A DNA stretch of 64,000 bases from the NCBI RefSeq assembly GCF_000302595.1, contig NZ_JH947125.1, forward strand, positions 322,884 to 386,883, read 5' to 3'. The notes beneath the pieces are model-generated. The model searched no databases, was not told the DNA's origin, and saw only the letters and a program-made list of their open reading frames with translations. Both the position numbers and the translations under genes were made by a program. How positions within the stretch are numbered: the first letter of the stretch is position 1; each line of letters starts with the position of its first letter. Positions 56,523 to 63,113 of the stretch are shown here, in pieces. The stretch is from Pedobacter arcticus A12. GTDB lineage: Bacteria; Bacteroidota; Bacteroidia; Sphingobacteriales; Sphingobacteriaceae.

Positions 56523-59318
56523 TTATTTCAATCTCTCCTTTAAATAGTGCCCAGTAAACGAGCTTTTGTCCTTCGCCAGTTCCTCCGGCGTTCCTTCAAA
56601 AACCAACTTTCCGCCGTCATTTCCCCCTTCCGGACCGATGTCAATTACCCAATCGGCACATTTCACAACGTCCATATTATGCTCAATTACAATGATTGTA
56701 TTTCCTTGATTGATAAGAGCTTCAAAAGATTTTAAAAGCTTTTTAATATCATGGAAGTGCAGACCAGTTGTTGGCTCGTCAAAAATAAATAATGTTTTAG
56801 AGCTATTGTTTCCTTTTATTAAAAAAGACGCAAGTTTTATTCGTTGCGCTTCCCCTCCTGATAGCGTATTTGAAGACTGCCCTAAATGGACATATCCTAA
56901 ACCAACATCAACCAAAGGCTGTAGTTTAGCCGTGATTTTGTGCTCATCCTTAAAGAAATCCAAAGCTTCGTCAATGGTCATTTCCAAAACTTCTGATACG
57001 TTTTTGTCTTTATACGTTACGTCTAACACATGTTGTTTAAAGCGTTTTCCGTTACAAGCTTCGCAAGGCAAGTAAATATCCGCCATAAACTGCATTTCAA
57101 TTTTTACTTCGCCCTCGCCTTGGCAAACATCGCATCTGCCACCTTCTACGTTAAAAGAAAACGCTGCAGGTTTCAAACCGCCAGCTTTCGCCGATGCTTG
57201 TGAAGAATATAAAGAACGGATTTCATCCCAGGCTTTTACATAAGTTACCGGGTTTGAACGTGAAGATCTTCCGATAGGATTTTGATCGACCATTTCTACA
57301 CCGGTGATTTCGTTTATTGCACCTTCAATGCCATCGTAAGAACCTGTTTGCTCACCCGAATAATTACCTAAAGTTTTCTGTAAAGCGGGCAATAAAATCC
57401 TTTTTACCAAAGATGTTTTTCCAGAACCGGAAACACCTGTTACAGCACAAAGCACATTTAAAGGAAACTTTACATCAATATTTTGGAGGTTGTTTTCTCT
57501 AGCACCTTTAACCTCAATAAACTCAATGGGTTTTCTTCTGTTTTTAGGGACAGCTATACTTTCTCTGCCACTTAAATATTTACCGGTTAAGCTATTTTTA
57601 TCTGTTAAAATCTCATTATAAGTTCCTGCAAAAATAAGTTCGCCACCTAAGGTTCCCGCCTCTGGGCCAATATCAATCAAATGATCGGCCGCCTGCATCA
57701 TTTCTTCTTCGTGTTCAACTACCAGAACCGTGTTGCCTACATCGCGTAAAGATTTTAAAACTCCAATTAAACGGTTGGTATCTTTCGGGTGTAAGCCAAT
57801 ACTTGGTTCATCCAAAACATACACAGAACCCACTAAAGAACTTCCTAAAGAAGTCGCCAAGTTGATACGCTGCGATTCCCCACCTGATAAAGTATTTGAC
57901 AATCTGTTCAGCGTTAAATAACCTAAACCAACCTCGTTCAAAAACAAAATACGGTTAGTGATTTCTAACAATAAACGTTTCGCAATTTTTGTATCACGCT
58001 CATCCAGTTTCAGCGTTTCAAAAAATGGAAGCAACTCCTTCAAAGGCATCAAAACCAAATCTGTAATGGAATGGTCCACTACTTTCACATAAGTAGCGTC
58101 TGAACGTAAACGACTGCCCATACAATCCGGGCAATTGGTTTTTCCGCGATACCTTGACAGCATTACGCGATATTGAATCTTATAGGTTTGCTCTTCTAAA
58201 AAAACAAAAAAAGCATCTAAACCTTTAAAATATTTGTTTCCTTTCCAAAGTAATTTACGTTCTGCATTGGTCAATTGACTAACCGAACGGTGAATTGGAA
58301 AATCGAATTTTGCAGAATGTTTTACCAGCTCATCCAGCCATTCCTTCATTTTTTCTCCACGCCAAGGCGCAATTGCCCCATCGTAAACAGATTTTGACTT
58401 ATCCGGAATGACCAAATCTTCATCAATCCCTAAAACACGACCAAAACCTTCACATTTTGGGCAAGCCCCGTAAGGATTATTGAAACTAAAAAAGTTAGGT
58501 GTGGGCTCTTCAAACTTGATTCCGTCAAGCTCAAACCGATCAGAAAAGTGTTTTCTTTCCCCGTCAAAATCTACATAACAGTCACCTTTTCCTTCAAAAA
58601 AAGCAGTTTGTACAGAATCCGCCATTCTACTGATGGTTTCATCTTCCTGGTTGGTCACAATCCTATCAATTAAAATCAGCAGTTTATGCTCATCTTTAAT
58701 CTCTTCGTTTGCAACACTCGCATCCTCCAAAACATCCTCAACTTTGCGTATCTCCTCGTTCAACACAATTCTTGAAAAACCTTTTTGTAGCAAAACCGCC
58801 AATTCTTCTTTCAACGTACGGTTGTTGTGCGGGTACAGCGGACATAAAATAGTGGTCACACTTTCTTCGGGTAATTCCGATAGGTAATTCACCACATCCG
58901 TCACCGAATCTTTTTTAACCATTTTGCCCGAAATCGGAGAAATAGTTTTCCCAATTCGGCTGAAAAGCAGTTTTAGGTAATCGTAAATTTCCGTAGAAGT
59001 TCCAACTGTAGAACGCGGGTTAGAGGTAATTACCTTTTGCTCAATCGCAATGGCAGGCGCAATCCCTTTAATATAATCAACATCAGGCTTGTTCATCCGC
59101 CCCATAAACTGGCGGGCGTATGATGATAAACTCTCCACATAACGTCTTTGTCCTTCCGCGTAAAGCGTATCAAAAGCAATGGAAGACTTTCCAGATCCCG
59201 ACATTCCGGTAATTACAACCAGTTTGTTTTTTGGGATGGCGACATCAATATTTTTGAGGTTATGGACTCTGGCGCCTTTAATAAGTATATTATGTTGTGG
59301 ATCTAATTCTTCTTTCAT
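56523..59318 (-). CDS. uvrA: UvrABC nucleotide excision repair subunit A
   Basis: The ATG at 59318 is preferred over a TTG at 59336. The 931-residue damage sensor has two ABC modules: Walker [10 protein letters not shown] near residue 37 and GVSGSGKTS in the second half, with LSGGESQR and LSGGEAQR signatures. Zinc-binding pairs are at CPKCEGFG and CPDCMGSR in the first module and at [10 protein letters not shown] and CEACNGKR in the second. It scans DNA for bulky lesions with UvrB. The length is typical. Confidence 0.98.
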
Positions 59319-59373
59319 TATCAATTCTCTCTGCAAATCTCCTGCTAAACCAACAGCTTCTAAATTTTGTTTG

Positions 59374-59476: not shown

Positions 59477-59626
59477 CATTTGGGCGTTCCCCAAGCTTCG
59501 CAAGGGTCGGGCTATTCGTTACAATCTTTTTTGTTGTTCTTCGACTCCCTCTTCGACTCCGCTCAGAGTGACAGTTCTTAGGATGGCAAAAAAGGATTTT
59601 CACTGCTATCCCTAACGCGGAAAAAA
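59477..59626 (+). repeat. Dispersed intergenic repeat, copy C, with nested cassette in minus orientation
   Basis: The head is CATTTGGGCG followed by a stem (CCC...GGG) and GGGCTATTCGTT. The tail is CACTGCTATCCCTAACGCG. Inside, at 59536-59573, lies a cassette reading TGTCACTCTGAGCG...GTCGAAGAAC on the minus strand. Its chance translation (CHSERS) is a well-known artefact of this cassette. Confidence 0.7.
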
Positions 59627-59753: not shown

Positions 59754-60956
59754 ATGAAAGTGCAGAAGCCGAATTTTTTAAAGTATCCCTCTCTAGTTGT
59801 GTTAACGCTTTTACTGAGCGTTTCTTGGATTAATAAAGACGATGATTTTGTAAAGAAAGCCTTTAACACCGCAACCCCTTTGTATAAAAACATGCTAGAA
59901 ACTACCGGTGATGATTTCAAAAATTATCCACATTCGCTGTTAAGCAATGGCAAACTTAGATATTATCAGATAGATGAATGGACTGGAGGTTTTTGGCCTG
60001 GCAGTTTGTGGAATATGTATGCTTATACAAAAGACCCTCAATGGAAAGATGCTGCTTTAAAATGGACAAATTCATTAGAAGCTAACCAATATAATACCAA
60101 GCATCATGATATTGGTTTTATGATGTATTGCAGTTACGGCAATGCGTTAAAGTTTGATAATAATCCAAAATACCAGCAGATTCTTGTACAATCGGCAAAA
60201 TCACTAACACAGCGTTATTCGCCAATCGTTGGCAGTATACAATCGTGGAATACCAGAAAATCAAAAGGCGATATTAATCTGTGGGAATACGCCGTGATTA
60301 TGGATAATATGATGAACTTGGAACTGCTTTTTTACGCTTCAAAAGTTACTGGAGATCCACTTTATAAAGGTATTGCCATTAAGCATGCTGAAAAAACCAT
60401 GCAAAACCATTTGAGAAAAGATTACAGCTCGTACCATGTCGTTAACTACGATCCAAAAACAGGAAAAGTTCTTCATCAACAAACCCTTCAGGGTTTTTCA
60501 GACCAGTCAACTTGGGCTCGCGGACAGGCTTGGGGAATTTATGGATTTACCACTGTTTTTAGAGAAACCAAGCAAAAACGCTTTTTAAACACCGCTATAA
60601 AAATGGCCGATTTTTATTTAGATCATCCAAATCTGCCAACAGATAAAATACCTTATTGGGATTTTAATGTGGGGCAAAAAGGCTTTAATCCGGATTGGAA
60701 TTTTGAACCCGCCCAATTTAAAGATACGCCAAGAGATGCTTCTGCTGCTGCAATCACCCGTTCTGCTTTGTTAGAGTTGAGTACTTTTGTAAAAGGATCT
60801 AAAAAGCAGAAATATTACAATGCAGCAGTTGCCATGCTCAAGTCTTTAAGTAGCGATGCTTATTTAAATACGGATGGAGAAAATCCATATTTTCTTTTAA
60901 AACACAGTACAGGCAACTTACCAAGCAACAGAGAAATTGATGGATATTTATTATAG
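59754..60956 (+). pseudogene. GH88 unsaturated glucuronyl hydrolase, 3' end lost in a deletion
   Basis: A 400-residue exported GH88 protein (signal anchor about 12-26). Catalytic blocks are intact: KHHDIGFMMYCSYG and EYAVIMDNMMNLELLF hold the two acidic residues, and YQIDEWTGGFWPGSLW and ARGQAWGIYGF are conserved. The expected ending, SNREIDVP followed by about 20 residues of the last barrel helix, breaks at SNREID, after which the frame runs GYLL and stops. The gene is thus cut at about 60940 and fused to a GH29 tail. It may retain partial activity. Confidence 0.75.
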
Positions 60957-61461
60957 TTCTGTGGGACGCAACGGAGTTTTGCTGTTAAATATACCTCCAG
61001 ACAAAGAAGGTTTAATCAACCAAAAGGATGTCGAAGCACTAGAAGGCTGGACAAAAATCAGACAAGCAACGTTTGGCGTGAACCTCGCTAAAGGCGCTGT
61101 TATCACATCTTCTAACGGAAAAAACATCAAGGCACTGCTGGATGATAATTACAGCACAAGCTGGACAACAAAAGGAAAAGACAGCACTGCCCTTATCGAG
61201 TTAAATTTAAAAGAACTGAAAACATTTGATGTTCTGTTATTACAGGAGAATATTACTGTTGGACAAAGGATTGAGAAATTTGTATTGGAATACTGGAGTG
61301 GAAAAACTTGGGAGCAAGCTGCTCAAGGTACAACGGTTGGATATAAGCGATTAATCACTTTTAAACCAATTTCTACTACAAAAGTCAGATTGAAAATTGA
61401 ACAATCACGTTTAAACCCTACTATCTCAGAATTTGGTTTATTCAGGTCGCCGCTAAAATAG
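60937..61461 (+). pseudogene. C-terminal fragment of a GH29 alpha-L-fucosidase with discoidin-like domain
   Basis: The 174-codon frame starts LMDIYYSSVGRNGVLLLN, the end of a GH29 catalytic barrel (the DIYYSSVGRN-LLLNIPPD block), then a hinge and a discoidin/F5-8-type beta domain (LAKGAVITSSNG, then STSWTTKG and a final FGLFRSP). The N-terminal 300-400 residues and catalytic Asp/Glu are missing, and no signal peptide or plausible start exists. Together with the truncated GH88 upstream it marks one deletion. Confidence 0.8.
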
Positions 61462-61973
61462 CTGCCCGTTCAGAAGTTAAAGAAACAAATTCACTACGTT
61501 TTTACGGTCGCGAGTTTTGAAGAAAAGCTGGGTGTTTCATCTAGCTTTTTCTTTGTAACAGTTTTCCGCGTTTAAGGAAATTGTTCTTATCCTTGTTTTA
61601 AAACGCTAATTTCCAATTTTTAAAAATCAGAATGGGTTTAGATAAAATAACTGCAAGCCTGCTTCTTTTGCGGTCTATAACCTTTGCTGTTTTATTACAG
61701 GGATAATAAAATCGTTGCTAATGTATCATGTTGAGATTTATTTTCGTATATTGTAGTATATGGTCAGTGATTATAAACAAAGAAAAACATAGTGAATTAA
61801 CCTTGTTTTGTTTGGACCAAAAAATCCAGACTACGTTAAAACGCGTTAATTATTTTGATTTTAATAAAATTATCATTTCATTTGATAAAGTTCATCAGTA
61901 AAAAAGGAGAAAACATATAGAAAAAACACTACTTAAATAATTAATAAACTCACAATTTAAAGTAGGATCTATT
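61462..61973. other. 512-bp spacer before the sigma factor
   Basis: Contains the terminator at 61523-61553. The rest is AT-rich with no convincing gene, promoter box or RNA. Confidence 0.6.
61523..61553 (+). terminator. Terminator after the GH29 remnant
   Basis: AAAGCTGGGTG pairs with CATCTAGCTTT over a TTT loop (two G-U pairs), followed by T5. It is probably the original terminator of the lost fucosidase gene. Confidence 0.75.
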
Positions 61974-62561
61974 ATGAGCTTTCACGAAAAAACAGACCAA
62001 GAACTGGTGCACCTTTATATTAAGGGGAATGAATCTGCTCTTTCTGAGTTGGTTACCAGACACAAATCACGCATATATACTTCCATTTACCTTTTGGTTA
62101 AAGATGAATTTTTGGCCGAAGATATTTTTCAGGATACTTTTATTAAGGTGATTAAAACCCTTAAAGCCGGAAAGTATAACGAAGAAGGTAAGTTTTTACC
62201 TTGGGTGCTCCGGATTGGGCATAACTTGGTTATTGACCATTTTAGAAAAGAGAAACGTAACCCAACCATCACCAACTCAGATGGCTTCGACATTTTTGAT
62301 GTTTTAGGCATACACGATGAAAGTATGGAGGAAAAAATGATTAAGCAGCAAACGCATGATGATTTAAAAAAACTGATTCATTATTTACCATCAGAACAAA
62401 AAGAAGTTTTGATTATGCGACACTACGGCGATTTAAGTTTTAAAGAAATTGCCGATCTCACCAGTGTAAGTATCAATACAGCTTTGGGCCGTATGCGTTA
62501 CGCTTTAAACAACCTTCGTAAAATGATGACGAACAAAGAATTGATTTTAAAGGCGAGCTAG
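61974..62561 (+). CDS. ECF RNA polymerase sigma factor
   Basis: A 195-residue sigma-70 family member. Region 2 is LSELVTRHKSRIYTSIYLLV and EDIFQDTFIKVIKTL, with VLRIGHNLVIDHFRKEKR. Region 4 is LPSEQKEVLIMRHYGDLSFKEIADLTSVSINTALGRMRYALNNLRK. It differs from the FecI-type factor at 2696 and is not next to a FecR gene, so it is not a SusC/D-type switch. A 63-codon gene follows and could be its regulator. Confidence 0.95.
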   Translation: MSFHEKTDQELVHLYIKGNESALSELVTRHKSRIYTSIYLLVKDEFLAEDIFQDTFIKVIKTLKAGKYNEEGKFLPWVLRIGHNLVIDHFRKEKRNPTITNSDGFDIFDVLGIHDESMEEKMIKQQTHDDLKKLIHYLPSEQKEVLIMRHYGDLSFKEIADLTSVSINTALGRMRYALNNLRKMMTNKELILKAS

Positions 62562-62958: not shown

Positions 62959-63113
62959 TATTTGGGCGCTTTAAAGCGCTTTCCACTTTATTTTTTTTTG
63001 TCCTCCTGAATTGTCACTCTGAGCGAAGCAGAAGAGGGGGGGGTCGAAGAACAAAAAAAGGATGCCGTTTCTCCGAAGGAGTCCTTTGGACAATCGTTAG
63101 CGCAAACTTTACT
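62959..63113 (+). repeat. Dispersed intergenic repeat, copy D, with nested cassette in plus orientation
   Basis: The head is TATTTGGGCG with GCGCTTTCCACT, and the tail is CAATCGTTAGCGCAAA, as in copies A and C. The cassette TGTCACTCTGAGCG...GTCGAAGAAC lies at 63012-63052 on the plus strand, opposite to copy C. It includes a run of eight G. Confidence 0.7.

Follow-up and report, generated by a model that had tools for sequence, protein, structure and literature searches.

The locus studied here raises the question of how parts of two glycoside hydrolase genes came to be joined out of frame, and whether either part still works. In the window, i.e. the whole stretch of 64,000 nucleotides from Pedobacter arcticus A12 that was analysed, two open reading frames on the forward strand, 59754-60956 (400 aa) and 60937-61461 (174 aa), lie in different frames and overlap by 20 bases. 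The initial annotation had read the first as a GH88 gene that breaks off and the second as the tail of a GH29 fucosidase, and had proposed that a microhomology deletion joined them in a decaying glycan locus. The genome (4.23 Mb) is assembled in 16 contigs and rated 100% complete, and the window, which lies within contig C1 (1.24 Mb), has a GC content (36.9%) close to that of the GH88 piece (36.9%) and the GH29 piece (37.7%). No literature specific to this locus was found in titles and the opening parts of abstracts.

The two gene pieces and the joint between them

The truncated GH88 gene (59754-60956, forward strand) matches PF07470 with 36.8 bits against a cut-off of 26.6 and is 80% identical over 400 residues to the intact gene of P. 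cryophilus (L082), and its best solved relative is 3wiw. As had been claimed, it follows its family and then breaks: family sequence runs through 60942 and is followed by four foreign codons, G-Y-L-L, and a stop. Thus the window gene shares the family core of the GH88 unsaturated glucuronyl hydrolases (L082, 3wiw), but the C-terminal ~20 residues of these proteins are replaced. Among the GH88 loci that were read past the joint, the best 80 of 103 confirmed, this segment is kept in 79, the exception being L144, in which the end of a contig cuts the gene. The lost segment is of the type D-V-P-L-I-Y-A-D-Y-Y-F-L-E-A-L-x-R, varied in distant relatives and absent from the window gene; eight of its residues (P398, Y401, D403, Y404, Y405, L407, E408, and R412) do not vary among the 33 of the 80 relatives that were aligned, and it is present in the sequences of solved GH88 chains, including 3wiw.

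The second frame (60937-61461, forward strand, 174 codons) is the 3' remnant of a GH29 alpha-L-fucosidase gene, as the initial reading had it. It consists of the last ~37 residues of the catalytic domain, matching profile positions 305-335 of 345 in PF01120 at 19.6 bits, below the cut-off of 25.2, and an F5/8 type C domain (61111-61404, forward strand, residues 59-156; PF00754, 42.3 bits versus 28.2). It is 70% identical to the end of the intact 500-aa GH29 protein L186 and 61% identical to the intact paralogue of the same type in its own genome (G000:C3:504084), in each case over the last 170-174 residues. The same C-terminal build is found in other GH29 proteins with a C-terminal F5/8 type C domain, namely L186, the paralogue and the solved 4zrx and 8ayr. 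In contrast, the first ~330 residues of intact proteins of the L186 type, including the active site, are missing from the remnant. Measured in three intact genes (L186, L049, and L048), 328-331 residues precede the joint, in agreement with the 300-400 missing codons estimated at first.

A stand-alone short GH29-like gene, conserved in relatives, was considered and rejected. A search with the GH29 tail gave a match in 327 of 399 genomes of the family, and among the matches listed all frames were longer than 450 aa except for two, the copy in the window (a 186 aa frame) and a broken copy of 122 aa (G314:C6). The latter (L204, G314:C6:265879-266235), from a different genus, is a GH29 tail of the same type with an internal stop in its 122 aa frame.

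The position of the joint was delimited from both sides. At the DNA level, the window resembles the congeneric GH88 genes of G002, G003, and G004 as far as 60942 and those of G001 and G007 as far as 60928. When 18 GH88 relatives were compared with the window in 6-base bins, similarity was 0.57-0.90 over 60883-60942 and 0.06-0.56 from there to 61008, while 21 GH29 relatives gave 0.05-0.48 before 60931 and 0.48-0.87 from 60931 on. Twelve forward-strand bases (60931-60942) therefore fit both parent genes in these alignments, and possibly 14 (from 60929). The second frame reads T-E-K-L-M-D-I-Y-Y at the joint, and E-K-L-[ML]-D-I-Y is found in 15 of the 21 GH29 homologues that were read across it, out of 22 loci (L204, which aligns only from residue 55, was dropped). 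The remaining six each differ at one place: D for E in L187 and L196, I for K in L048, and F or T as the fourth residue in L195, L201, and L203. A proline precedes the motif in 20 of the 21, and the shared stretch would be 14 bases long if the codon for this proline in the GH29 gene was CCA. Over all 14 bases, no difference separates the window from the intact GH88 gene of P. cryophilus.

The microhomology, which is deduced from relatives of the parent genes, was compared with chance by random in-phase placement. Over the 12 bases, the P. cryophilus GH88 gene and the 21 GH29 genes had a mean identity of 8.4 out of 12, compared with 3.2 for random placements, and only 1 of 20,000 placements equalled this similarity, whereas the six bases TTGATG alone were equalled by 0.87%. 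The best single GH29 relative matches 11 of the 12 junction bases and none matches all 12. TTGATG (60937-60942) had been singled out at the outset as fitting both frames, and indeed it does; the extent of six bases did not hold, since the shared stretch comprises 12 bases and perhaps 14. These comparisons support a true chimeric junction between two genes that were once longer.

The interval between uvrA and the sigma factor gene

To the left of the two pieces lies a gene on the reverse strand (56523-59336) that we take to be uvrA from our reading of the protein rather than from a profile search. Its DNA is matched in 16 of 17 other congeneric genomes, weakly in G010-G012. To the right lies a gene for an ECF sigma factor (61974-62561, forward strand; PF04542 and PF08281), which is 81-92% identical in 15 of the 17. 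The two are divergent neighbours in 12 of these 17 genomes, and in the other 5 one gene is missing, weakly matched, or located on another contig. Detailed comparison of 11 congeners gave 314-723 bases from the start of the sigma gene to the first aligned uvrA codon, as against about 2.64 kb between uvrA and the sigma gene in the window. Similarity to the nearest congener stops at about 59387, reappears in weak form at 61719 and becomes firm at about 61834; the 3' end of the insert (61462-61718, forward strand) contains no open reading frame of at least 60 aa. The GH88 and GH29 pieces thus sit in an insert of about 2 kb, which none of the 11 congeners compared has in this gap. That the block is an insert in a conserved uvrA-sigma interval, and that the spacer beside it is a known RNA element, had both escaped the initial annotation.

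This spacer (59477-59626) had been described as repeat-rich. A dispersed repeat core is in fact present, with 78 places in the genome at no more than one mismatch, but the element as a whole is a Flavo-1 RNA (RF01705; 59501-59626, reverse strand; covariance model score of 55.3 bits versus a gathering score of 42), and the repeat core is contained in a 53-base loop stretch of this RNA. Flavo-1 was also found in the uvrA-sigma gap of 2 of the 11 congeners searched (G006 and G009), and therefore it is either old in this interval or the interval is a repeated target; the match in G005 falls beyond the sigma gene. Beyond the sigma gene, the window has a partial second copy of the spacer element at 62994-63063 on the opposite strand, 81% identical over 70 bases. 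PMC2864571 and PMC9723704 are listed as containing the word Flavo-1.

One deletion or separate insertions

Bacterial deletions between short direct repeats, which arise by illegitimate recombination, can leave fused gene remnants. As in such deletions, the window has one copy of the shared stretch at the joint, and the intervening genes were not found; the difference is that the undeleted arrangement has not been observed, and thus we infer the deletion in the window itself. A microhomology deletion, the mechanism proposed at the start, is the best reading of a shared stretch that so few random placements equalled. We consider it probable that a single illegitimate recombination at the 12-14 base microhomology fused GH88 and GH29 remnants in the uvrA-sigma insert, with loss of function. 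On this reading, DNA inserted into the gap between uvrA and the ECF sigma gene would have come to carry two genes pointing the same way, one for a GH88 protein of the Pedobacter group and one for a GH29 fucosidase. Recombination would then have occurred at 12-14 bases shared by chance, near the end of the GH88 gene and in the E-K-L-M codons of the GH29 gene, and the deletion would have taken the last ~20 GH88 codons and the first ~330 GH29 codons. The loss of intervening DNA was judged in the 16-contig assembly rated as complete, and the content of that DNA is itself deduced.

The initial annotation had taken both genes to come from one locus for unsaturated uronic acid and fucose, a claim that outruns the evidence. 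None of the GH88 loci (the best 80 of 103, each covered for up to 10 kb on either side) contained a GH29 tail of the window type, and none of 22 GH29 loci chosen from the best matches contained a GH88 gene. Neither in these 80 and 22 loci nor in two family searches of 399 genomes was an undeleted GH88-GH29 arrangement of the window type found, and the nearest GH88 and GH29-tail pair seen by eye among the matches listed is about 33 kb apart (G223). However, searching the 80 GH88 loci with a more distant GH29 query gave matches in 7, of which three were read (L121, L123, L129, and L161 being left out). In two of them, from Olivibacter jilunii (L120) and Pararcticibacter amylolyticus (L110), a same-strand GH29 gene comes next after GH88, at a distance of 20 and 16 bases, respectively, with PF01120 scores of 277.7 and 283.6 bits. 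Unlike the window type, these proteins end in Fucosidase_C (PF16757) and have no F5/8 domain, and they are 28% and 25% identical to the intact paralogue in the window genome. In Desertivirga arenae, a GH29 gene, confirmed with PF01120 and also without an F5/8 domain, lies one gene beyond GH88. Pairs of GH88 and GH29 therefore exist, with another build of GH29, and the specific ancestor was unseen.

The alternative is that the two fragments were each already truncated and were brought together in the uvrA-sigma gap by separate illegitimate insertions or translocation, having never formed one locus. We regard this as unlikely, if still credible. It would agree with the fact that no examined relative has both genes of these types together, with the absence of the block from the gap in the 11 congeners compared, and with the different nearest relatives of the two halves, which are P. 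cryophilus, from the same genus, for GH88 and other genera for GH29. On the other hand, two independent truncations meeting at 12 shared bases are less likely than one event, and a search of the rest of the genome found neither missing half. When the N-terminal half of L186 was used as the query, no separate N-terminal half of a window-type GH29 was found in the genome; the intact C3 paralogue matched at 73%, and six other matches, one of them a 50-residue piece with a stop at C6, were 38-48% identical. On the GH88 side, a gene of the endonuclease/exonuclease/phosphatase family (261-267 residues, PF03372 in all five) lies 1-4 bases downstream in the five congeners that have this GH88. A relative of this gene is present in 7 of the 80 GH88 loci; beyond the five congeners, the following gene was checked in the closest next-of-kin GH88 genes of 2 of 5 genomes. 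Our guess is that the ancestor of the window locus had this gene as well, in which case it was probably removed too by the single deletion. The window genome has no orthologue of it, the best match having 29% identity and 20 bits. Because the missing pieces from the GH88 side and from the GH29 side were not found elsewhere in the genome, loss fits better than exchange.

Three further observations concern related sequences. Two short frames in the window genome, each with an internal TAG, are possible remnants, one GH29-like (G000:C6:81390-81539) and one GH88-like (G000:C2:893807-894055). In P. cryophilus, an open reading frame upstream of GH88 (L043:6016-6570) presumably resembles REP-associated transposases.

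Decay and function of the remnants

The picture of a locus that is decaying was not borne out beyond the truncations themselves. There were no further stops or frameshifts in either frame, and the substitution counts are within the range of intact relatives: of the 121 sites without variation among the 30 other GH88 proteins, the GH88 piece differs at 2 (range for the others, 0 to 5), and the GH29 tail differs at 1 of 41 sites invariant in 21 others (0 to 3 for the others). The end branches of the trees are longer for the window than for its comparison gene, both for GH88 (0.21 versus 0.081 for P. cryophilus) and for the tail (0.39 versus 0.12 for L186), and relative-rate counts of GH88 against P. 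cryophilus gave p < 0.05 with 6 of 8 outgroups. Accelerated evolution of GH88 as a sign of decay was nevertheless rejected, because the intact genes of P. cryotolerans and P. insulae show the same imbalance relative to P. cryophilus (a ratio near 2 to 1 in most of the 8 comparisons); the P. cryophilus gene is simply slow, and thus the unevenness is no evidence of decay. For the tail, the counts reached p < 0.05 with 1 of 6 outgroups and all six lean the same way, and the GH29 tail may be under a faint relaxation. With uvrA as the control, no significant difference was seen with 6 of 7 outgroups; the remaining one, L176, gave 18 versus 73, probably because this genome is closer to the window's.

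The truncations themselves bear on function. In the GH88 core, D119 and D184, two aspartates with a catalytic role, are invariant in 34 aligned sequences, the window included. Going by residue conservation and the solved-chain sequences, the protein lacking the conserved C-terminal segment is most likely inactive or unstable. The tail frame has no fucosidase active site and, by eye, no signal peptide, and it is most likely non-functional. It could be argued instead that the two frames function as a coupled pair: the shortened GH88 would still be useful, and a free-standing sugar-binding protein of the F5/8 type C kind would be translated from the overlapping ATG. Both frames are open, the changes at conserved sites (2 of 121 and 1 of 41) stay within the range of intact relatives, and a 20-base overlap would suit coupled translation. 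We find this very improbable, however, since the lost GH88 segment has eight invariant residues, the tail begins inside the catalytic domain with a start that by eye is unlike a signal peptide, and the only other short frame among the matches listed from the 399 family genomes is a broken copy. An assembly artefact that joined two distant loci is hardly believable even in a draft assembly of 16 contigs, because the site is deep inside a 1.24 Mb contig, neither missing half was found elsewhere in the assembly, 12-14 bases are far below the usual assembly overlap, and a block bracketed by uvrA and the sigma gene, neighbours in congeners, would need a second false join back.

What is seen here is ordinary genome erosion: genes were lost within an insert specific to this lineage, and nothing so far points to a new function. 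The locus illustrates cleanly how a block of sugar-degradation genes, once inserted, can erode, with both genes cut at a single joint where 12-14 coding bases happened to be shared, in an interval whose empty form is known from congeners; general understanding is not changed by this. For annotators, it means that the 174-codon "fucosidase" at this locus is a remnant.
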